From positions 186,001-250,000 of the forward strand of contig JAGVMP010000011.1 of assembly GCA_020053735.1 (NCBI GenBank): DNA of 64,000 bases, in the 5' to 3' direction. Under the pieces are notes generated by a model. That model was not told where the DNA came from and searched no databases. It saw only the letters and a list, made by a program, of their open reading frames with translations. Below are positions 627 to 33,531 of this stretch, in pieces (the first letter of the stretch is position 1; each line of letters begins with the position of its first letter). This DNA is from Pseudomonadota bacterium. Lineage in GTDB: Bacteria > Pseudomonadota > Gammaproteobacteria > Burkholderiales > Methylophilaceae. The translations under genes were made by a program, and so were the position numbers.

Positions 627-1487
627 TTAGGCTTTCAAGTGTAGCTTGCCTGCATGGTCTCTTGCAAATTGGTAAGCCACTCGCCCGCTGCGCATACCAC
701 GTGTGTGACTAAAACTAAGCGCAGCTTGCCTAGCAGGCTCATCCCAAGCCACATTAAAAGTGCCTAGCCAGTTTTCGGCAATGGCCAAATACTCATCTTG
801 ATCGAATGTATAAAACGATAGCCATAAACCAAATCGTTCTGCCAGCGCCACTTTTTCATCTAACGTTTCATTGGGTCTAATTTCGCCATCTGCGTGTTTA
901 AATGCCAAATTATCGGCCATCATTTCGGGCATCAAGTTTTTGCGATTTGATGTGGCATACACCAACAGATTATCTGACAGGCTAGCGAGCGTGCCATCCA
1001 GCACAACCTTAAGCGCCTTGTAACCCACATCATCCGCCTCAAAGCTTAAATCATCACAAAAAATAATAAATTTTTCTGGCCTATTTTGCACTAAAGCCAC
1101 AATTTGATTTAATTGAATTAAATCGTGTTTTTCCACTTCAATCAAACGTAACCCTTGCGCAGAAAACTTTGGTAATAGCGCTTTCACCAAGCTAGATTTT
1201 CCAGTGCCACGCGCGCCTGTAAGCAATACATTGTTAGCAGGAAAGCCTTGTATAAACTGCTGCGTATTGCGTACTATTTCAGCTTTTTGCGCATCAACAA
1301 AGCAAATATTATCCAGTGAAATTGCATGCGGATGCTCAACCGCTTGCAAACTACCGCGGCCGTTATGCATGACCCAGCGCCAAGCCGTTGCAGCCCAATC
1401 TACAGGGGGGCTTTGTGCTGGCAACAAAGCCTCCAGCTTAGTGATTAAGCTTTCAGCACGGTTAATAAGATTTTCAAACTGATTCAT
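627..1487 (-). CDS. DUF815-family ATP-binding protein
   Basis: ORF with Walker A LLTGARGTGKSSLVKALL and FCDDLSFE; AAA-like. Confidence 0.85.
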   Translation of the reverse strand: MNQFENLINRAESLITKLEALLPAQSPPVDWAATAWRWVMHNGRGSLQAVEHPHAISLDNICFVDAQKAEIVRNTQQFIQGFPANNVLLTGARGTGKSSLVKALLPKFSAQGLRLIEVEKHDLIQLNQIVALVQNRPEKFIIFCDDLSFEADDVGYKALKVVLDGTLASLSDNLLVYATSNRKNLMPEMMADNLAFKHADGEIRPNETLDEKVALAERFGLWLSFYTFDQDEYLAIAENWLGTFNVAWDEPARQAALSFSHTRGMRSGRVAYQFARDHAGKLHLKA

Positions 1488-1529
1488 ATTTTAACGCTAG
1501 CCTATACTCACTCAGAAGGTGTGGATAAG

Positions 1530-1664
1530 AGATGAAATGCAAGGCGCGAGACAAAAAATAAAAAACGCAGGTAGTACACCGCAGATAATGTACTAAAGTA
1601 CAGCCAGTTTTATTTTTGTTGAAGCAACACAGCAGTTCGCTCATAGCCATGCCTTATGAGCGAT
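1530..1664 (+). repeat. Extragenic repeat copy downstream of argJ
   Basis: GATGAAATGCAAGGCGCGAG...AGCAACACAGCAGTTCGCTC; ends in CGCTCATA...TATGAGCG hairpin overlapping the argJ stop. Confidence 0.6.
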
Positions 1665-2880
1665 AGTCGGCATTAATTTTGACATAATCGTAACTAAAAT
1701 CGCAAGTCCATACCGTGCAGTCTGTACTACCGCGATTCAACACCACGCGCACTAAAATATCCGACTCTTGCATAATAGCAGCGCCTTGTTCCTCGCGATA
1801 ACTTGCTGCGCGACCACCCTTTTCGGCTACTAAAATATGACCTAAATATAGCTGCATATTATTTACATCTAAATCATCAATCCCCGCATAACCAATCGCT
1901 GCCAAAATACGTCCTAAGTTAGGGTCTGACGCAAAAAATGCCGTTTTAATTAGCGGTGAATGCGCAATCGCGTAAGCCACTTTACGGCACTCAGCTTCAG
2001 TTTTTCCACCTTCCACACGTACTGTCATAAATTTAGTAGCACCTTCGCCATCGCGCACGATGGCTTGCGCCAACTCAATAGCAACTTCTGTTAACGCGTC
2101 ACGAATAACCACGAAATTTGCACTATCATCTGCAATCTCCGCGTTATTGGCTTTTCCAGTCGCCATCAAAATTAAGCTGTCATTGGTACTGGTATCACCA
2201 TCTACAGTAATGCAATTAAATGATTTATTGACCGCATACTGAATAATATTTTCCAGCGCAGTCTGACTGATAGCTGCATCGGTGCCGATATAGCCCAACA
2301 TGGTCGCCATGTTGGGATGTATCATGCCACTACCCTTGCTAATACCAGTGATGGTGATTTTTTTACCATCAATCGTGATTTGTTTACTAACGCCTTTGGC
2401 CACTATATCAGTGGTCATAATGGCTTCGGCAGCATTCAGCCAATTATCGGACTTTAAGTTTGCTATTGCCGCTGGCATACCAGCAATCACTTTATCCACA
2501 GGCAATGGCTCTAATATAACCCCTGTAGAAAACGGCAATACTTGATTTTTATTTACACCAAGCAAGTCAGCAAGCGCTTCACAGCTCTGTTGGGCGCGAC
2601 TTAAGCCGTCTTCACCTGTGCCCGCGTTGGCACAACCCGTATTCACAAGTAGCGCACGAATGCCCGCTTGTTGGGCTAAGTATTCCTTACATAAGACAAC
2701 AGGTGCCGCGCAAAACCGATTTAAAGTAAACACACCAGCTACTGCTGTGCCCTCGGCAAGTTTAACCACCAGCACATCTTTACGGTTAGGTTTGCGTACT
2801 TGCGCTTTGGCAAAACCCAATTCAATGCCGCTAACAGGCAATAAGGATGCGGCTTGCGGGGCATTTAACTTTACTGGCAT
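1654..2880 (-). CDS. argJ: Bifunctional glutamate N-acetyltransferase / ornithine acetyltransferase
   Basis: ORF with ArgJ motifs ([39 protein letters not shown]). Confidence 0.95.
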
Positions 2881-3066
2881 GCGATTACTTTCGATAACTT
2901 GGATACAAATTGAATAGCACCATTTTAACGTAATAGTGCAGTTATCAACACCGCAACCTGAATGAAACTTGCCATTTGTGCCTTTGCCAATTGCCCATTA
3001 GCGGCAGCAAGTGCTAAACTCTTGAAAAATAAAAAAATATACGCCATTTTTTGATGGGTAATATAT

Positions 3067-22975: not shown

Positions 22976-23100
22976 AGCAACTCCTTAAAATGTACTATCA
23001 ACAAATTGATAGTTATTTCACCTTACTTGAAAAACTTGCATTACCAATTTTTTAAACAATAAAAAAGCCAGCTTATTTAGCAAGCCGTTCAGTAAAGGTG

Positions 23101-23142
23101 TTGATAAATTAAAGGATAGGAGTATAATAACTTCTGTCCTTT
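23101..23142 (+). promoter_or_regulatory. Candidate transposase promoter with -10 inside a hairpin loop
   Basis: TTGATA (23101-23106) - 16 bp - TATAAT (23123-23128); arms AAAGGATAGGAG (23111-23122) / CTTCTGTCCTTT (23131-23142) pair with two G-U wobbles in RNA. Confidence 0.5.
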
Positions 23143-23161
23143 TCTTATATGAATCAATACT

Positions 23162-24928
23162 TTGACTAATAACAGCCCTGATTTAAGCACCGATTTATTA
23201 TTACATAAAACTTATAGAATTCCACCTGAATTTAATGGTGTTCAAGTCAATTTCTGTAAAAATCCTGAATGTGAGAATTTTGGCATTCCATCTACTCAAG
23301 AGAAGAATAAGAAAAAAGGTGTTAAAGATACATATAAGCTAAAAGGTTCTTATAAAGATAAACCTATTCTTCATTGTTTATCATGTGATGAATATATACC
23401 AGTAAAAAGCAATCAAGGTGTATTTGAAGAAACACAAAGAATGGTTGATGGTAATACTTCAACTATTGAATGTTGTCCTGATAATGAATGTTCTAATCAT
23501 CATGTATCAATCACTACTCCAAAAGCTTATCAGTCATTTGGTAAAACAAAATCAGGTTCAAATAGGTATCGTTGTAAAGCCTGTATGAAAACATTTGCAG
23601 TAGGTTCTGTATCTACTCGCTATCAAAAACAACCTGAAATAACAAAACAAGTCTTTAAACTATTAATGAATAAATCCCCATTCCGTAGGATTTGTGAAGT
23701 GGTAGATATTCACCCTGAAACTCTTTATCACCGTATTGATTTCTTAGCAGAGCAATGTAATTCATTTATGGCTCACCATGAAGCCAAGTTAAAAACATTA
23801 AATATTGATAGGTTATATCTAGCAGTTGATAGGCAAGATTATTCAATTAACTGGACACAAAGAAAAGACAAAAGAAATAATAAATTTCAAGGTGTAGCTA
23901 CTGCTGATAATGAAACTCGTTATGTATTTGGTCATCATTTGAATTTTGATGAAGCATTAAATAGTGATGAAGTTGAAAATGAAACTGCTAGTCTTAATGA
24001 CTTATCTAAACCATTACCATATAGACGACATGCAAGAGCTTGGCTTAAAAATGATTATGAAAGAGCTATGGTTAAAGCTTCTCATAGAAATGGTAGTGCT
24101 ACCCTTAAAGATGATATTAACCACACTTATACAGTGCAAGAAAGCCGTGATGATATAGAGAAGCAAGAAGTATTAACCAGTGATTTAAAATTGCCTAAAG
24201 ATGGTATGCAGATTCATAGTGAATACACTTTATATGCTCATTTCAATTACATTAAAAATCTATTAGGTAATGTTGGAAAAATCCGTTTCTTCTTAGACCA
24301 GGATAGTGGTATGAGAGCAGCATGTTTATCTGCATTTAAAGACGAGATCAAAAATAGAACTTGTGATGCTTTTTATGTGAGTATCAGTAAAGATTTAACC
24401 GTTGATGAAAAAAGAAAATGTAAAAATAAAAGCAAAAAAGTGTTTGATAAGTTTAGGGCTTCAAATCCTGATTTAGAACCAAATGACATTAAACTTCTTA
24501 TGATTAAAGAAGAGTTAAAAAGAATGCAGGAAATTGGTAAATGGAAAGATAAATGGTTATTCCATCCATTACCTGATATGGCTGAACCTGAAAAAATGGT
24601 GTGTTATTTAACTGATTTCAAAGATTATGATGATACACATTTGGCATGGCTCTATAACAAAGCAAGTTTGCATGGGGTAGATACCTATTTTATGCAGGCT
24701 AGAAGAAGAATATCTATATTAGAAAGACCTTTGCATTCAGCTTCATCAAGTGGTCGCGTATGGAACGGTTATGGTGCTTACAACCCATCTACAGTGATTA
24801 AGTTATTAGCTATATTTAGAGCATTTACTAATTTCGTATTAGTTGGTAAAGATAAGAAAACACCAGCCATGAGATTAGGGTTAGCTGATAGACCTTATAG
24901 CTATGATGAAGTGATTGAATTTGTGTAA
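23162..24928 (+). CDS. Putative zinc-ribbon, DDE-type transposase
   Basis: Zinc-ribbon Cys pairs (CLSC; CPDNEC; YRCKACMKTF), HTH-like region (FRRICEVVDIHPETLYHRIDFL), candidate DDE at YLAVDRQDYS / FFLDQDSGMR / RRISILERPLHSASSSGRVWNGYGAYNP; C-terminal TPAMRLGLADRPYSYDEVI; TTG start. Confidence 0.8.
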   Translation: MTNNSPDLSTDLLLHKTYRIPPEFNGVQVNFCKNPECENFGIPSTQEKNKKKGVKDTYKLKGSYKDKPILHCLSCDEYIPVKSNQGVFEETQRMVDGNTSTIECCPDNECSNHHVSITTPKAYQSFGKTKSGSNRYRCKACMKTFAVGSVSTRYQKQPEITKQVFKLLMNKSPFRRICEVVDIHPETLYHRIDFLAEQCNSFMAHHEAKLKTLNIDRLYLAVDRQDYSINWTQRKDKRNNKFQGVATADNETRYVFGHHLNFDEALNSDEVENETASLNDLSKPLPYRRHARAWLKNDYERAMVKASHRNGSATLKDDINHTYTVQESRDDIEKQEVLTSDLKLPKDGMQIHSEYTLYAHFNYIKNLLGNVGKIRFFLDQDSGMRAACLSAFKDEIKNRTCDAFYVSISKDLTVDEKRKCKNKSKKVFDKFRASNPDLEPNDIKLLMIKEELKRMQEIGKWKDKWLFHPLPDMAEPEKMVCYLTDFKDYDDTHLAWLYNKASLHGVDTYFMQARRRISILERPLHSASSSGRVWNGYGAYNPSTVIKLLAIFRAFTNFVLVGKDKKTPAMRLGLADRPYSYDEVIEFV

Positions 24929-24930
24929 TA

Positions 24931-24966
24931 AAAAAGAGCTTATCAAAATGAATTGGTAAGCTCTTG
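24931..24966. terminator. Bidirectional terminator hairpin between transposase and res
   Basis: AAGAGCTTA...TAAGCTCTT arms preceded by an A-tract, between convergent genes. Confidence 0.6.
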
Positions 24967-24983
24967 TGTTGTGTGTCTTGTAG

Positions 24984-27257
24984 TTAATTTGATATTAACG
25001 ATGCAGACAGGTTTTGATTGGAAATAAGCTCTGAAAGTTTTATAAAGTCACTAAAATCATTTCTTTTAACTCTATCTATATTTACATTACTATCTTTATT
25101 CACTAAATACTCATTGTTATTAAATATTACAATTCTTCCAGAATAATTTTTTTGACTACAACCAAAATCATACAAAGCTCTGAGTTTATTGTTTTCAATA
25201 GCTTCTGTAAGTGTGTTGCCCGACTTTGTATCCATTACTAAATACTTACCACATTTTAATTTAATAATATAATCTGGAAAGAAGTTATGTAAGACTTGAG
25301 ATGCATCATTATAAATAATACTGTAATTCGATTTTGGGGTTGTGCCATTTTTATACCAAAATAACACATCAGGATTATTATCAATATAATTTTCAAATTT
25401 TTGTTCTATATTTGATTTTGTATTTTGTAAATAATAATTATGAAAAACATTCTTTTTGAAACTTGAGGATAGTTTATGAGTTTTTTTATTAAAAAACTCT
25501 TTTAATGGTAAATTAAATATATATCTATTAACTTCTTTTTTGCTTGAAAGTTGTAATTCAAGTTTCTGTTTAATATTACTTAAAACATCAATAAATGATT
25601 TATCCTCAGTTATAAATGAGTTGTAAATATATATTTCATCTTGTTCATTTATCTGATTTAAACTAAAAATTGATTTATATAAAAAATAGACTGATTCAAG
25701 AATAGACTCTTTTAAGTGTGGTTTATATGAAGAATTAAAGAAATATTTTAAAATACTGATAAATTTATTATATAAATCATTACGAGTAGAACTTACTTTG
25801 GTGGATTCCTTTTCAACAACACCAAAACTATACTCAGAGTTAATGTCTTCTGAATTTATTTGTCCGATTGGAATTTTTGTTTCAAGAATAGGATTGAACC
25901 TTGAATTTTTAAGCAAAGAATTAATTGTTTCATCATTTTTTAATATTTCACAAATTGCTTTAATTTGTTCTGCCGATAGACCAGTTTTTTTATTATTGTC
26001 TAAATATTGACCAACTAAAGTAAAGCTATCAATATTAGTTTTTAGTTCAGATATAAAATTACCATAATTTAAATGTTCAAAGTCAATTACAGTATTAACT
26101 TCTTCTGAATCAGTATATAAATAAGCAACATCAATAATTTGATTGTTATAATGTTTCCCGTTAATCGTTCTTAATACTCTACCCAAAAGTTGTATATCAA
26201 AAGATTCAGAATTACTTGAAAACTCTCTGAGTTTTACTAATATATGTGCTCTCGGACAATCCCAACCTGTTGCAATTGCTTGTTTGAATATTAAGAATCT
26301 TTGCTTACCATTTATAATATCAGTATTATTAGACTTATCCTCTGATAACCAAACTGCAATATCATAATCACTAATTGAAGGATCACACTCCTTTATTATC
26401 CTTATAATATCTTTAGAGCTATTATTAATATCTAAATCACTTTTATTCGCTATTTGGATAAGAATTAAAGGCACTAAGTTATTTAGCTCAGGATTTTTAT
26501 TATATTCGGCTTGAATAATTTTTTGTTGATTAATTGCAGAATTAATTATTGCCGATGCATTTTTACTAGTTAAGGGGGTTTTTTCATTTTGACTATAAAC
26601 TTGATTAATAATAATTTCTTTTTTAATTAAACCTTCATCAATTACTTCTGTACTATTAATTATCAAAGAGTTATCAGAAACAATTTTTTTAGAAGTATTA
26701 GTTGCAGATACTTCAATTTTAATCTTGGGGTTAATGTAATCAAATATATTTAAACCAATTTCGGTATCTAAACCCTTATGTGATTCATCAATAATAAGCA
26801 AAATTGGAATATTATTACCGTTTGTATTATTAATAATGTTCTCAAAAGACAATGATGTTGAAGAATCATTATTAATGTGTGATTTCTTATTCCTAAGAGC
26901 ATTCAGTGATATAAATACAATATCGCCTTTAACTAAATTAAATTTACTTGAAATATCTTTATACTCATAGCACTTATAACCATTATAATTTTCAATTTTC
27001 TTTTTAGATTGCAAATGCAGATCACCATCAGCAATTGATAACCATATCGTTGCATATTCTCTTTTGTCTTTTAATAGCTCTGCTAATATTCTTGTTTTAC
27101 CAGAGCCAGTCGGAGATTGAATATAAATCTCTTTTTTAGAGTTTCCATTCATAATTTCATTAACATAAGAAATCAATCCATGATGCTTTAAATAGTTTGT
27201 TCTATCGGATTGTAAATTCCCATATAATATTTTTTCTTGAAAGTTTTTTAATAGCAT
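24984..27257 (-). CDS. res: Type III-like restriction enzyme subunit (SF2 helicase + PD-(D/E)XK)
   Basis: Walker A SPTGSGKTRILAELL; IIDESHKG; QLLGRVLRT; C-terminal FPDYIIKLKCGKYLVMDTKSG (PD...DxK). Confidence 0.85.
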   Translation of the reverse strand: MLLKNFQEKILYGNLQSDRTNYLKHHGLISYVNEIMNGNSKKEIYIQSPTGSGKTRILAELLKDKREYATIWLSIADGDLHLQSKKKIENYNGYKCYEYKDISSKFNLVKGDIVFISLNALRNKKSHINNDSSTSLSFENIINNTNGNNIPILLIIDESHKGLDTEIGLNIFDYINPKIKIEVSATNTSKKIVSDNSLIINSTEVIDEGLIKKEIIINQVYSQNEKTPLTSKNASAIINSAINQQKIIQAEYNKNPELNNLVPLILIQIANKSDLDINNSSKDIIRIIKECDPSISDYDIAVWLSEDKSNNTDIINGKQRFLIFKQAIATGWDCPRAHILVKLREFSSNSESFDIQLLGRVLRTINGKHYNNQIIDVAYLYTDSEEVNTVIDFEHLNYGNFISELKTNIDSFTLVGQYLDNNKKTGLSAEQIKAICEILKNDETINSLLKNSRFNPILETKIPIGQINSEDINSEYSFGVVEKESTKVSSTRNDLYNKFISILKYFFNSSYKPHLKESILESVYFLYKSIFSLNQINEQDEIYIYNSFITEDKSFIDVLSNIKQKLELQLSSKKEVNRYIFNLPLKEFFNKKTHKLSSSFKKNVFHNYYLQNTKSNIEQKFENYIDNNPDVLFWYKNGTTPKSNYSIIYNDASQVLHNFFPDYIIKLKCGKYLVMDTKSGNTLTEAIENNKLRALYDFGCSQKNYSGRIVIFNNNEYLVNKDSNVNIDRVKRNDFSDFIKLSELISNQNLSASLISN

Positions 27258-27264
27258 AGAGTTC

Positions 27265-29004
27265 CTATTTGTTTTTATTATTATTCATTTCTTTTAATGC
27301 AATTTCATAGTTTTCAATAAGTTTTTTTGGCAAATATTTAATTTCTATTTCACTGGAACTAAGAGTATTTATGACATCTTCAGTTAAAGATTCACTAATA
27401 CTATAAAAATAAAATATTTTCTTATTTCCAGAATTGTTAATAATATTTTTCAATGTTGTTATATCATTATTATTGTGAATTAAATAAATATCGCAATCTA
27501 ACTTTCGCAAATGTAAATATTCGTTATTGTTATTTACATTATTAAAACTATTTTCTAATAACATTACCAATTCACTTGCATAGTTCCTAATGTTAATTTG
27601 AAATCTTTCAGAAATATTATTTGGTTTTAAGTAATAAATATTATCTTGATTTTTATTACTTTTTAAGAGGCGATTGTATGTAATATTTTCACAAATACTA
27701 TTTTCATTATTTGTACATAAAATGAATTGTCTATTTCCATTATCTTCAGCATTTAAATTCATTACAGCTTGCCCTGTAGTTCCTGAACCAGCAAAAAAAT
27801 CAAGTATGAGAGCATCATTTTTTGGATATAACGATATTAGTAGTTTTATATAATCAACAGGTTTTGGATAATCAAAATCTATCCCTAGATCATTTTTTAA
27901 TTTTTTCCCTGCTGTTTCTGTTAACAAATCAACACCAGTATTATCAGCATAAATTAATGTATTAAGCTTTTGATTAAAATCTCTTTCTTTTTCATATATT
28001 GAATTTTCACAAAAAAGTAAGTTACCATCCATGAACATTTTTTCAACTGTTTCTTTTGTATATGTGACTTCATTAGGATTTCCTGTTTTTTTATGTATAG
28101 GTCTAAATAATGTATACCCATTATTGATTAGCCCCATATCTCTTTCATAAAATATATTATCTATTTCGTTGTACTCATTTTTGATAATTAAGTCATTGGT
28201 ATCTTGCTTATAATAAATACTAAAACATCTATGTTTCTTTTTAGGCGAAGAAATTTCTTTATTTTCATTTGTACCAATAATTTGTCTTTTAGCTTTTTTA
28301 TAGCTTCCAAAATTATCTGTGTATATAGTTCTTTTATCTGACATACTATTTATTGGAGAATTAAATTCAAAAATATTCTTTTTAAAAGAAGATTTATCTT
28401 TAGCATACACAAGACAATACTCATGATTTTGAGCCAAAAATGCACTGTTCTTTCTTCCTTTTGGATTATTCTCAACACATATCATATTAATAAAATTATC
28501 ATCAGTGAATATTTCATCACAAAGTAATTTTAATTGTGCGAATTCATTATTATCAATACTTATAAATATAACCCCATTTTTAGCCATTAATTCTTTTGCA
28601 AGTGATAATCTCTTTCCAATAAAAGATAACCATTTACTGTGTCTAAATAAGTCATTTTTATCTACTTTTTTATCGTTATATATCCAGCCATCTTCACCTG
28701 TGTTATAAGGTGGATCTATATAGATGACATTGACCATTTCTTTATGTGTTAAATTTAAAGATAATAAAGCTTCTAAATTATCAGCCTCTATCAATAAATG
28801 ATTAATCTTATTTATGTCATATTTAAAATTATCTTTTTTTGTTTCATCAATAGTTAAAATAGGTAATTTATTTTTATATTTTTCTTCGATATTTTCAGAA
28901 TGATTTTCCCACACAAGACCATATTTTTTTCTTTGCTGTAATTCATAAATTATTTTATGTAATTCATCAGTATTTTTATCTTTTAAGCTATCAAATGTAA
29001 ACAT
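27265..29004 (-). CDS. mod: Type III-like site-specific DNA-methyltransferase (adenine N6) subunit
   Basis: DPPYNTGEDGWIYNDK (motif IV) and LDFFAGSGTTGQAVMNLN (motif I), beta-class order; immediately upstream of res. Confidence 0.92.
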   Translation of the reverse strand: MFTFDSLKDKNTDELHKIIYELQQRKKYGLVWENHSENIEEKYKNKLPILTIDETKKDNFKYDINKINHLLIEADNLEALLSLNLTHKEMVNVIYIDPPYNTGEDGWIYNDKKVDKNDLFRHSKWLSFIGKRLSLAKELMAKNGVIFISIDNNEFAQLKLLCDEIFTDDNFINMICVENNPKGRKNSAFLAQNHEYCLVYAKDKSSFKKNIFEFNSPINSMSDKRTIYTDNFGSYKKAKRQIIGTNENKEISSPKKKHRCFSIYYKQDTNDLIIKNEYNEIDNIFYERDMGLINNGYTLFRPIHKKTGNPNEVTYTKETVEKMFMDGNLLFCENSIYEKERDFNQKLNTLIYADNTGVDLLTETAGKKLKNDLGIDFDYPKPVDYIKLLISLYPKNDALILDFFAGSGTTGQAVMNLNAEDNGNRQFILCTNNENSICENITYNRLLKSNKNQDNIYYLKPNNISERFQINIRNYASELVMLLENSFNNVNNNNEYLHLRKLDCDIYLIHNNNDITTLKNIINNSGNKKIFYFYSISESLTEDVINTLSSSEIEIKYLPKKLIENYEIALKEMNNNKNK

Positions 29005-29288
29005 TGTAATTATCCTTATTATTTTTATTTAAGGAATCAATTAAACAATGTCAAATTTATTTATATAGTTCAGTAATCTTAATTATTAATATTTATTTAA
29101 ACTAATATTATTCAGCTTTAATTACTGATATTGTTTTTATATTCCTATATTAAATATACGAAATTAAAACAATAAATCAATATTTTATGTATATTTATTT
29201 AATATTTATTTGACAATAAATGTATATATTTTATTGACTTTTCAAATAAATCTATTAGGAGTTAAATAAATGATTTAATGGATAATTT

Positions 29289-29468
29289 ATGACAACAAAT
29301 AGAAAGAAAAAGAAAAGTTTAAAATTAATTAATGATGCAAGAATAATTTTAGAAATTGAAAGTGAAGTGAAAGGTCAATTAGAGGATGTGGCAAATAAGC
29401 AGGTCACAACTTTGTCAAATCTATTACGATTAATTATTAAAAACTATTTAAAGAAAAATTCTAAATAA
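29289..29468 (+). CDS. Ribbon-helix-helix (Arc/MetJ-like) small regulator (not in ORF track)
   Basis: MTTNRKKKKSLKLINDARIILEIESEVKGQLEDVANKQVTTLSNLLRLIIKNYLKKNSK*; divergent from mod. Confidence 0.7.
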   Translation: MTTNRKKKKSLKLINDARIILEIESEVKGQLEDVANKQVTTLSNLLRLIIKNYLKKNSK

Positions 29469-29535
29469 TATGAATATCTAAATTGATTATTTTTATATTA
29501 CAATCAGGAAACTTTATTTATTAAGGAAAAAATAA

Positions 29536-29862
29536 ATGACAACTGATATTCAACAAATTGAAATTCAAATAGCTGAATTACAGCAAAAGAAAGAAACACT
29601 ATTGAAAGAGCAGAGAACTACTAAACTGAAAGAAGCAAAAGAAATTATTAAACAGTTTGGATTTACTGCTAATGAGTTGGGAATAACACCTAAACCGAAC
29701 AAGAAAGCTTCAGGAACGGTTAAAACTACACTTGAAGCAAAGTATATTCATCCTACGGATAAAACTCTTACATGGCATGGTGGGCAAGGTCGCAAACCTC
29801 AATGGGTTAAAGACTTTCTCGCAGGTGGTGGTGGATTAGTTGATTTGGAAATAAAGAAATAA
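29536..29862 (+). CDS. H-NS-family nucleoid-associated protein
   Basis: N-terminal coiled coil; C-terminal HPTDKTLTWHGGQGRKPQWVKDFLAGGGGL resembles the H-NS DNA-binding motif. Confidence 0.85.
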   Translation: MTTDIQQIEIQIAELQQKKETLLKEQRTTKLKEAKEIIKQFGFTANELGITPKPNKKASGTVKTTLEAKYIHPTDKTLTWHGGQGRKPQWVKDFLAGGGGLVDLEIKK

Positions 29863-29903
29863 AGAATGTCTTTATAATTAAACTTTACGATTGAAATAAC
29901 TTT

Positions 29904-30317
29904 ATGATAATAAGAAAATGGTTTAAATACTTTATAGAGAAAGTCTTTTTCAATAGATTAGCAGCACTGTTGTTTTGTGCGACTATTTCAATAATTTCTT
30001 ATGCTCTTGAATATGTATTCAGTATTGAAAACCTATTTTCTTCATCTGGGGCAATCTTTACTCTTGCAGGTATTTTTCTAAATATTAAACTCACAGCTCA
30101 TTATCATCTTAAACTTCCAAATGGTGAGCCTCTTGGTGTGGATAGTAAATATGCAATGATTTCTGGTGAGGGTGTTTTTGGTGGAAGCGAAAACAAGGAT
30201 GAAAAAGAAAAGAAAGTTAAAGAAGTTGAGAGTGATGAAGTTTGGGGTGCTTCTCTAATGGTTTTTGGAACATTGATTTGGGGTTATGGCTCATATTTAA
30301 TTAAATTAATAAATTAA
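29904..30317 (+). CDS. Small membrane protein of unknown function
   Basis: Hydrophobic segments LAALLFCATISIISYALEYVF and ASLMVFGTLIWGYGSYLIKL. Confidence 0.6.
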   Translation: MIIRKWFKYFIEKVFFNRLAALLFCATISIISYALEYVFSIENLFSSSGAIFTLAGIFLNIKLTAHYHLKLPNGEPLGVDSKYAMISGEGVFGGSENKDEKEKKVKEVESDEVWGASLMVFGTLIWGYGSYLIKLIN

Positions 30318-30331
30318 ACAAATTTTTTATA

Positions 30332-31159
30332 CTAACGATTAAGCCAACCTTTAGGAACACTACTGTATTGAACAACACGACCATCTTCAATTAGATACCA
30401 TATTGTTTCACCATCTTTTTCCCATACAGCAGTGCATTTATTTGTTTGATTACATTCTGCAAGTTCAGGTTTAGATTTATCGCAAACTGAATTTTCAGTT
30501 AAACAATTTCCATACATTTCAGTAGTATTTAATTTAAAGCCATTAGTGTGCAATTTCCCTGTTTTGATTAAAATTGGTTTTAATGTTTTTGGAGCAGGAT
30601 TCCAACCAAGACTTATCACTTTTTTGCGAATATCTTCATAAATACCAGTTTGAGGTGGTGGGCTTTCTGTTTCACATTTACCTTTACTACAGACGGTTAA
30701 ACTTCCATCATTGTTTTGAGATAAATATTGACCATCAGTATTTATGCTATTAGCCTTTTTCCAATCAATAATATAGAAATTATTAATTGAATTCTTAGCA
30801 TCAAACACACAATTTTTATAATAACTGCTGTTTATATCTGAGATGAAATTTGGGGAAAAGTCTTGAGGTTGTAAAACTTCATAAACATATTTAACTGATC
30901 TAGCAATAAAAACCTGACTTTCCTTTTTCTTTAAATTTTGATTTGCCATTTTTCTATTAACATAATCTACAGCACCTTTTTGTGATTTATATTTCACATC
31001 TGAATACTGACCAGAATAAGCTTCAATTGAATACTCAATTATCATAGCTCTTACACCACATTCACCTCTATTTCTATTTTCTTCATCAGTAAATGCATTT
31101 GCTTGAGAGCTAAATACAATTGCCATAAAAAGTAATAACGACTTAATAAGTGATGTCAT
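30332..31159 (-). CDS. Exported protein of unknown function
   Basis: Signal peptide MTSLIKSLLLFMAIVFSSQANAF; Cys-containing secreted-like sequence. Confidence 0.65.
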   Translation of the reverse strand: MTSLIKSLLLFMAIVFSSQANAFTDEENRNRGECGVRAMIIEYSIEAYSGQYSDVKYKSQKGAVDYVNRKMANQNLKKKESQVFIARSVKYVYEVLQPQDFSPNFISDINSSYYKNCVFDAKNSINNFYIIDWKKANSINTDGQYLSQNNDGSLTVCSKGKCETESPPPQTGIYEDIRKKVISLGWNPAPKTLKPILIKTGKLHTNGFKLNTTEMYGNCLTENSVCDKSKPELAECNQTNKCTAVWEKDGETIWYLIEDGRVVQYSSVPKGWLNR

Positions 31160-31255
31160 ATGTTTTTCACTGAGTTGATTTAATATTTTGTAGAGCTATT
31201 GTTTGTAATAATATCTTGTTATGTGCGATATTTTCATAATCTCAACAATCCATAA

Positions 31256-31288
31256 GAAAAAAGCCCTATCAATTTAATGATAGAGCTT
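31256..31288 (-). terminator. Inward-facing terminator at right end of the element
   Basis: Arms AAGCcCTATCA (31261-31271)/TGATAGaGCTT (31278-31288); minus strand continues into a T-tract. Confidence 0.65.
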
Positions 31289-31374
31289 CTTAATTTAAAA
31301 TCACCCACTTAATTTCAACACCTTTACTGAACGGCTTGCTTATTTAGCTGGCTTTTAAAAACTAACTAACTATA

Positions 31375-33531
31375 TTACCCCAGTACCACTTCCACCAAAT
31401 TATCACTAAACGTCGTCGAATGCCCCATATCCCCAAACTCAGCCGCACTAATACAATTAACAGTACCCTTATTCAACTGCCGCCAATAACCTAACGTCGC
31501 GACCACAATGCCGGGGTTTACATCTTTGGTGATGCGAGCATCGCCTTCAAACGCGCCACGGTCGTTAAACACTTTAACCTTTACGCCTTCTAAAATACCC
31601 CGAGTTGCGGCATCTAGCGGGTTAATCAGCACAAATTGCTCGCCTTGGTCTTTGATTTTCTCCGCCACGTTGGCATAGCAGCTATTTAAAAAACCGTGGC
31701 TTTTGGGCGAGATAATACTTAATGGATATTTTTTCGCTAATTCTGGATTGCTTTCCATACTTTCACGATTCGCGACGTAATCGGGTAACGCATCTAAATC
31801 CTCACCTGGCTGAAAGCCTTCATACATTTGGCGGAACGGCCCTGCAACAAAGTTTTTAGCGCCTTCTACCAAGAACATGCATTTACCTGTTGGCGTGGGG
31901 AAGTTGCCGTTTTTATGTGGCGCGCGGTCATCCTTGGTGCCTACTTTCAACTTGGCAAAGCCATGCTCGCGCATATAGGCTAAATCATAACCATCGCAGG
32001 CTGGCGCATCCCAAGCCACGTAGTTTTCCAGGCATTCGCTGTCAGACCATTTGAAGTTATCTTCTTGAAAGCCCAAGCGTTTTGCCAGCTCCCTAAAAAT
32101 ATCATTATTGGGTTTTGCTTCGCCCGGTGGGTCGATGCATTTGGCGTTGTAGGTAAGATACAAATGTCCCCAGCTTAAAATCATGTCTTCCATCTCCGCG
32201 CCCATTGCGGCTGGCAGCACAATATCTGCATAGGCGGCGGTGTCAGTAATAAAGTGATCAGCCACTACGGTAAATAAATCTTCGCGCATTAGGCCCTTTA
32301 CAATTTTATCGGTTTCGGGTGATTGCGTAACTGGGTTGGTGTTCCACACCATCAGCGATTTAATCGGCGTTTTCAGCTTGATTTCACCCAGCAAAACGCG
32401 ACCAAGTTGCAGAATATTGGCTACTTGTGTGCCCTCGGGGATTAAATCGGGACGCGAAATCACATCAAAACGGTAAGGGTGCTCCCACACCGGGAACTGT
32501 AAAATGCCACCCCCTACATGGCGCCAAGCGCCGATAAGCGCAGGCAAACAGGTCACTGCGCGAATAGCCTGACTGCCACCATAATTGCGCTCTAGCGCCA
32601 CGCCAATACGAATGGCCGCTGGCGCTGTGGTAGCGTATTCGCGCGCAAATTTGCGGATGTCATCCGCAGGAATACCGGTGATTTTCTCTGCCCATTCTGG
32701 TGTGCGGGTTTTAGCACGTGCCGCCAGTTCCTTAAAGCCTACCGTGTAGTTATCAATGTAATCTTGGTCTTGCAAACCTTCTTCAATAATCACGTGCATC
32801 ATCGCCATGGCCAGTGCGCCATCGGTTCCTGGTTTTGGCGCAATATGCCAATCGGCCTCTTTCGCGGTTTTAGAAGCGTAAGAGTCCACCACCACCACTT
32901 TGACGCCTTTTTTCTGTGCCTCATGAATAATGTGCCAGTGATGTAAATTGGTAGAAACCGAATTGGATGCCCACACCACGATATATTTCGAATGAATAAA
33001 GCTTTCAGGGTCTACACCAGCAGTCGGCCCCACAGTCAATAACCATGCGGTACACGAGCCTTCGCCGCAAAATGTGCGTTCGGTTACCGTCGCGCCAAGA
33101 CGGTTAAAAAAGGCATCGCCGCCGTTAAGTCCATGCACCAAACCTTGGTTGCCCAAGTAACTGGCGGGCATAATCGCTTGCGCGCCATCGGTTTTAATAA
33201 TCGCCTGCCATTTGTCCACAATCGTGCTTAAAGCTTCATCCCAACTAATGCGCTGAAACTGCTTGCTGCCTTTGGGGCCAACGCGTTTCATCGGGTAAAG
33301 CAAGCGATCTGGGTGATAATGCCGTTTTTCATAATCTTTGAGCTTGACGCACAAACCACCGCGCGTCATTGGGTGTTCAGTATTGCCTGTGACTTTTAAC
33401 AAAGTGCCATCTTTTACATGAAATACCATGCTGCAGGTATCGGGGCAATCATGCGGACAGCCACCGTGGTGGGTAGTCGTAATATTTTTTTGGTCAAGGT
33501 CAACAGGCTTATTCATTTTAAAAATCTCCAC
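31375..33531 (-). CDS. Molybdopterin-dependent oxidoreductase (DMSO reductase superfamily, 4Fe-4S)
   Basis: GGCPHDCPDTCSMVFHVKDGTLLKVTGNTEHPMTRGGLCVK; start may be internal MNKPVD. Confidence 0.88.
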   Translation of the reverse strand: MEIFKMNKPVDLDQKNITTTHHGGCPHDCPDTCSMVFHVKDGTLLKVTGNTEHPMTRGGLCVKLKDYEKRHYHPDRLLYPMKRVGPKGSKQFQRISWDEALSTIVDKWQAIIKTDGAQAIMPASYLGNQGLVHGLNGGDAFFNRLGATVTERTFCGEGSCTAWLLTVGPTAGVDPESFIHSKYIVVWASNSVSTNLHHWHIIHEAQKKGVKVVVVDSYASKTAKEADWHIAPKPGTDGALAMAMMHVIIEEGLQDQDYIDNYTVGFKELAARAKTRTPEWAEKITGIPADDIRKFAREYATTAPAAIRIGVALERNYGGSQAIRAVTCLPALIGAWRHVGGGILQFPVWEHPYRFDVISRPDLIPEGTQVANILQLGRVLLGEIKLKTPIKSLMVWNTNPVTQSPETDKIVKGLMREDLFTVVADHFITDTAAYADIVLPAAMGAEMEDMILSWGHLYLTYNAKCIDPPGEAKPNNDIFRELAKRLGFQEDNFKWSDSECLENYVAWDAPACDGYDLAYMREHGFAKLKVGTKDDRAPHKNGNFPTPTGKCMFLVEGAKNFVAGPFRQMYEGFQPGEDLDALPDYVANRESMESNPELAKKYPLSIISPKSHGFLNSCYANVAEKIKDQGEQFVLINPLDAATRGILEGVKVKVFNDRGAFEGDARITKDVNPGIVVATLGYWRQLNKGTVNCISAAEFGDMGHSTTFSDNLVEVVLG

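Follow-up and report, generated by a model that had tools for sequence, protein, structure and literature searches.

A widespread family of DDE transposons very likely integrates into the hairpin loops of intrinsic transcription terminators

An 8,258-bp transposon carrying a type III restriction-modification (R-M) system was identified in the window (the whole 64,000-nucleotide stretch of DNA analysed here), where it splits the intrinsic terminator of a molybdopterin oxidoreductase gene. Together with its relatives, it represents a widespread family of DDE transposons that very likely integrate into the hairpin loops of intrinsic terminators; the evidence for this is bioinformatic only, and no transposition was observed. 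The family is large and apparently undescribed in the open-access literature that we searched, with no comparison to ISfinder. In the open-access PMC subset, which leaves subscription papers and preprints outside the search, no terminator-targeting transposon was found except IS1272.

The ends of the element were determined first from its repeats. The sequence AAGCCGTTCAGTAAAGGTGTTGA at 23082-23104 has a perfect inverse at 31315-31337, and a direct repeat, GCTTATTTAGC, lies outside both ends (23071-23081 and 31338-31348); removal of the element with one flank copy restores AAAAAAGCCAGCTTATTTAGCTGGCTTTT. These inverted and direct repeats had been reported in an earlier sequence-only reading, and their exact positions were confirmed. 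That reading had left the target duplication ambiguous between 7 and 11 bp. Such an ambiguity arises because the insertion is into a palindrome, in which bases at the two edges of the duplication are complementary, allowing the register to slide in steps of two. The register of the family PWM settled it: the terminal inverted repeat (TIR) starts one base further out, at a C, and therefore the element spans 23081-31338, one base outward of the earlier boundaries at each end, with 24-bp TIRs (CAAGCCGTTCAGTAAAGGTGTTGA) and a 9-bp target-site duplication (TSD; CTTATTTAG). The left TIR occupies 23081..23104 (plus strand) and the right TIR, its perfect inverse, 31315..31338 (minus strand), while the two TSD copies, placed by the same register and the repeats, lie at 23072..23080 and 31339..31347.

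Read on the minus strand, which encodes the molybdopterin oxidoreductase gene (31375-33531), the restored site gives the RNA AAAAGCCAGC-UAAAUAA-GCUGGCUUUUUU, which folds at -16 kcal/mol (z -3.8) and forms a perfect intrinsic terminator fold for this gene. By folding, the left half of the split terminator (AAAAGCCAG, 23063..23071, minus strand) is the U-tract side for the minus-strand gene, and the right half (CTGGCTTTT, 31348..31356, minus strand) adjoins the stop codon of the gene. The earlier claim that the target was the loop of this gene's terminator thus held on both reconstruction and folding. The empty site downstream of the gene, which had been suggested as a check, was not found, since the 14 same-genus genomes were unrelated beside the gene or ended there; a scan for relatives also found the transposase absent from 60 nearby genomes.

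The transposase (588 aa; 23162..24928, plus strand) contains N-terminal Zn ribbons and a helix-turn-helix (HTH) as well as the triad D223/D379/E521, all three residues of which are invariant in an alignment of 40 homologues. An AlphaFold (AF2) model (pLDDT 88.7) predicts an RNase H-like DDE core, and the nearest solved fold is that of ISCth4 (IS256 family, PDB 6xg8; E 4e-4, TM 0.27-0.36, 12% identity). Membership of the DDE (RNase H-like) transposases is met by the invariant triad, shown in the sequences, together with the predicted fold and its best match to ISCth4. We did not file the protein in IS1, IS256 or IS1182, because the IS1 models match the Zn-ribbon/HTH part only and ISCth4 is merely the best fold match. 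The IS1 model NF033558 (NCBIfam) matched residues 126-218 only, within the Zn-ribbon/HTH part, at 42.8 bits against a cut-off of 100; positions 12-103 of its 199 were covered, and the IS1 catalytic half remained unmatched. When the transposase was searched as a profile against the PDB, the only matches were to zinc fingers, and these fell in the Zn-ribbon region. The Pfam/NCBIfam matches of the transposase included neither DDE_Tnp nor IS1182 models, and the only IS256 sequence model was that of a 20-residue Zn-binding domain, below the cut-off.

Downstream of the transposase lie a type III restriction (Res) subunit (24984..27257, minus strand; Pfam ResIII 4e-13, PADLOC REase_III) and a type III DNA methyltransferase (Mod; 27265..29004, minus strand; Pfam N6_N4_Mtase 7e-38, PADLOC MTase_III 6e-81), which as adjacent Mod and Res genes meet the criterion for a type III R-M cargo. 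The remaining cargo encodes a small ribbon-helix-helix protein (59 aa; 29289..29468, plus strand; weak match), an H-NS-like protein (29536..29862, plus strand; Pfam Histone_HNS 1e-8) and two proteins of unknown function, one without any family match (29904..30317, plus strand) and one without a significant family match (30332..31159, minus strand). The transposon, the DDE transposase and the R-M cargo proposed by the sequence-only reading were all upheld.

Protein searches found relatives of the transposase on plasmids and at 70 genome loci from Pseudomonadota, Thermodesulfobacteriota, Acidobacteriota and others, and no relative on viral contigs; a first profile, with Firmicutes rows included, proved too divergent for scanning. 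Ends were found by inverted-repeat similarity and then aligned with a TIR profile, yielding 52 elements that share one TIR layout (consensus CAAGCCGTTCACTTAAGGTGTTGA) and range in length over 1.9-12 kb; 49 of them have both flanks. The conserved DDE transposase adjoins the left end in every relative. The TSD length was resolvable in 44 cases, being 9 bp in 32, 10 bp in 10 and 7 bp in two, and five further duplications had decayed. Nine elements are cargo-free, that is, bare insertion sequences (IS), and DNA methyltransferase or R-M genes were present in 14 of the 23 elements with a cargo ORF of at least 300 aa. The R-M kinds across the family include types I-like, IIG, III and NotI-like; MkoC, ApeA-like, NERD and HipA genes make up other large cargoes, and two smaller cargoes are Fic and AbiEii-like. 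The family cargo is mostly an R-M or other defence module.

Several observations were made alongside this survey. Two contigs (L033:1-4025 and L036:1-5450) have termini that coincide precisely with the transposon ends (C...G), as might result from multicopy elements breaking the assembly or from circular transposon forms. An IS21 (istA/istB) element is inserted within one of the terminator-targeting transposons (L041:12346-14638). Homologues of about 500 aa from one Vibrio-like genus (L154-L161) were rejected as elements, as they occupy a fixed locus without TIRs. They occupy roughly positions 1450-3000 of the oriented stretches, on the downstream side of a deoD-like gene, at a site that looks fixed among the genomes examined from that genus, and D223, D379 and E521 are all replaced. 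Judged by its sequence, this homologue appears to be a transposase that has been domesticated and has lost catalysis, but that may still bind hairpins or terminators.

The target sites of the family were then compared with null positions, with hairpins and terminators scored by our own scripts rather than a published predictor. A hairpin with a score of at least 18 and its dyad no more than 1 bp from the TSD centre was present at 34 of the 49 sites, versus 0.45% of 19,200 random flank positions from the same loci and 0.83% of 12,829 intergenic positions (P 2e-59). With a 5-bp window the count was 38 of 49 against a null of 3.2%; the strict 1-bp window misses evident terminators whose duplication is shifted by 1.5-4.5 bp (e.g. 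L071 and L013). An A-tract on the left with a T-tract on the right was found at 30 of 49 sites, versus 0.8%, and many sites share AAAAA-GGC/GCC...GGC/GCC-TTTTT. Five target hairpins have folding energies of -16 to -20.5 kcal/mol, and a gene 3' end lies within 150 bp on at least one side at 36 of the 47 sites with enough flank. The standard deviation of the dyad-to-TSD offset was 0.44 bp and that of the A-tract-to-dyad distance 2.8 bp (range 7.5-22.5 bp). The former value was computed on sites pre-chosen at 1 bp or less; when the scan was widened to 12 bp on each side, 34 of the 38 strong hairpins remained within 1 bp of the TSD centre.

The site counts show that the preference for terminator loops is strong, not absolute. 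No strong hairpin occurs within 5 bp of the TSD at about 11 of the 49 sites (e.g. L015, L016, L021 and L066), and hairpins without a clear T-tract also serve as targets (L056 and L059). Three hold-outs outside the 49 (L150, L152 and L153) comprise one clear terminator with its dyad 2.5 bp off, one weak hairpin and one site with none. In a well-supported clade of near relatives (L052, L058 and L071), the duplication is apparently 1-2 bp off the dyad, a clade-specific shift suggesting that the register could be a property of the transposase.

A distant member of the family provides natural replicates of these insertions. The Firmicutes relatives of the transposase share 25% identity with it, and among them is the dfrG trimethoprim-resistance element (L018:14332-17607; L098), which has a length of 3,276 bp, the TIR TAAGTAGTTCAGTTTTGGAGTAC and a 9-bp TSD, and occurs on Enterococcus, Staphylococcus and Listeria plasmids and in a staphylococcal prophage. 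Its 9-bp duplication coincides with a terminator loop at six of nine distinct sites, the other three being weak; one copy without a duplication, beside IS1216 (L096), was left uncounted. One of these terminator-loop sites is intact and empty in another plasmid (NZ_CP096052.1; 591/591 nt, 100%), providing the empty site that was lacking for the window locus. With these dfrG insertions, the rule extends over the deepest split in the transposase tree. The suggested check of whether the targets of homologues are also terminator hairpins was therefore positive, at the above 34 of 49 sites and at five further distinct dfrG sites, and its recurrence in most of the 49 related insertions puts the pattern well beyond chance.

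The host genome of the window element (2.44 Mb, 19 contigs) contains one other transposase of this kind, which is 39% identical. It belongs to a 12,046-bp element (L003/L010) with related TIRs and with type IIG R-M and PDC-S15 genes as cargo. Rejoining its flanks gives AAAAAAGCCCACAATTGTGGGCTTTTT, a terminator with the duplication in its loop, so that two independent elements in one genome both reside in terminators. Within this cargo, the PDC-S15-type candidate defence gene lies beside the type IIG R-M enzyme and a WYL regulator (L003:11073-12371). Short palindromic MITE-like repeats, whose ends resemble the family TIR with three mismatches, were also observed in this genome (L008:2309-2462 and L009:9969-10150); one starts directly after a terminator T-tract rather than in the loop. 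They are possibly non-autonomous relatives, and were excluded from the target statistics owing to their degeneracy and to this position after a terminator.

A new finding, shown by a sequence scan with our own scripts, is that the elements carry inbound-facing intrinsic terminators just inside their ends. Such a terminator was present 20-170 bp inside 30 of 52 left ends and 30 of 52 right ends, with 44 of 52 elements having one at one end or more, compared with 1.0% of flank fragments and none of 260 interior fragments; outbound-facing terminators were found at only 1 of 52 left and 9 of 52 right ends. In the window element, they lie at approximately 23111..23144 (plus strand) and 31256..31290 (minus strand), both directed against incoming transcription, and the right one would be expected to halt transcripts running on from the molybdopterin gene. 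Some IS are known to have inward terminators, which shield them from impinging transcription. The combination of a broken host terminator with carried ones would amount to restoration of the lost termination, and it is possible that the element evolved to restore what its insertion breaks, a functional reading that is inferred. The sequence-only reading had suggested that terminator loops are safe sites; this idea is strengthened because terminators are carried just inside the element ends, while the selective advantage of a neutral insertion remains an inference.

We propose that the two transposase molecules of a symmetric pair would each join one transposon end to the target, one to the left and one to the right of the hairpin dyad, at positions staggered by 9 bp or sometimes 10 bp; the loop and the first stem pairs would therefore become the target duplication, and the stem would be split between the two flanks. 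The inbound terminators, present at one or both ends of most elements, would then re-terminate host genes whose terminator has been split, and would also shield the transposase and cargo from read-through. Recognition of the palindrome by the transposase is itself inferred. Because the dyad register is fixed and the A-tract distance variable, the data favour reading of a palindrome, whether extruded as a hairpin or present as a dyad-symmetric duplex, rather than of a fixed linear motif; there is no proof of either structure reading or transcription coupling.

Four other explanations were considered. The one that survives best is that the transposase reads a linear dyad-symmetric duplex (A-tract, GC-rich half-sites and T-tract) and no hairpin. 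The motif common to many sites speaks for it, as does the natural fit of a dyad to a dimeric transpososome, but the dyad lies at such variable distances from the A-tract while its register is nearly fixed, and hairpins without a clear T-tract are used too; we consider it less likely than not. Transcription-coupled targeting, in which the transposase would recognise a terminating RNA polymerase, an RNA hairpin or a U-tract hybrid, fits the functional-looking terminators beside gene 3' ends; however, transcription has a direction whereas the cuts are symmetric about the DNA dyad, and an orientation bias was not shown, which makes it unlikely. Near-random insertion followed by selection for the least harmful sites at gene 3' ends would also predict the observed proximity to 3' ends, but selection cannot set the duplication on the dyad within half a base, does not explain 69% hairpin-centred sites versus 0.8% of intergenic positions, and is at odds with the same dfrG element repeating the pattern at separate sites; we consider it very unlikely. 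An ordinary genomic island with chance edge repeats, for which only the missing empty site among the same-genus genomes could speak, is all but excluded because of the family data, namely the perfect TIRs with a direct duplication and the conserved transposase and shared TIR layout of the 52 elements.

Returning to integration into terminator loops, its potential significance lies in terminators being numerous and present in nearly every bacterial genome, at places where insertion breaks no gene. If true, a transposase that homes to terminators and needs no fixed sequence would amount to a general safe-harbour integrator, the low-cost settling of R-M systems, other defence modules and dfrG trimethoprim resistance in unrelated hosts would be explained, and the question of how a DDE transposase reads DNA structure would become directly testable. 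A bolder reading joins four claims: a DDE family distinct from the described IS families, recognition of terminators by structure and not sequence, a terminator swap, and an almost universal neutral landing site that spreads defence and resistance modules across phyla. Taken together, and without the ISfinder comparison, this could as well fail as hold.

Among known systems, REP-targeting IS1397/ISKpn1 and IS110/IS1111 insert site-specifically into intergenic palindromes of one repeat sequence family, whereas the present family uses sequence-unrelated terminators across phyla. With IS256 (ISCth4), it shares only the fold of the closest solved RNase H-like DDE core; the match is weak, and the N-terminus and ends differ. 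IS1 has a transposase of about 230 aa and ends GG...TG. The present family resembles it in the N-terminal Zn ribbon/HTH and in the TSD length, which meets the 8-9 bp of IS1, but differs in the size of the window transposase, in the below-cut-off IS1 model and in its TIR start, CAAGCCG. A 3.3-kb dfrG insertion element of Staphylococcus and Enterococcus is mentioned in PMC5932375, which we take, by size and gene, to be the 3,276-bp member; it differs in carrying antibiotic resistance as cargo and in having an additional upstream ORF of 98 aa, and no description of its terminator targeting was found in the papers searched. The closest known behaviour is that of IS1272/TnSha1 (IS1182 family). It targets hairpins and shows little specificity for their primary sequence; several of these hairpins are terminators confirmed by RNA-seq (Furi et al. 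2016, PMC4923244). Like the present family, it carries a passenger gene. No IS1182-type domain was found in the window transposase by Pfam/NCBIfam. Moreover, IS1272 inserts bluntly into the stem, partly deleting the hairpin without target duplication (PMC4923244), whereas the present family duplicates the loop (9-10 bp) and leaves the reconstructed stems intact with nothing lost, as the exact dfrG empty site illustrates.
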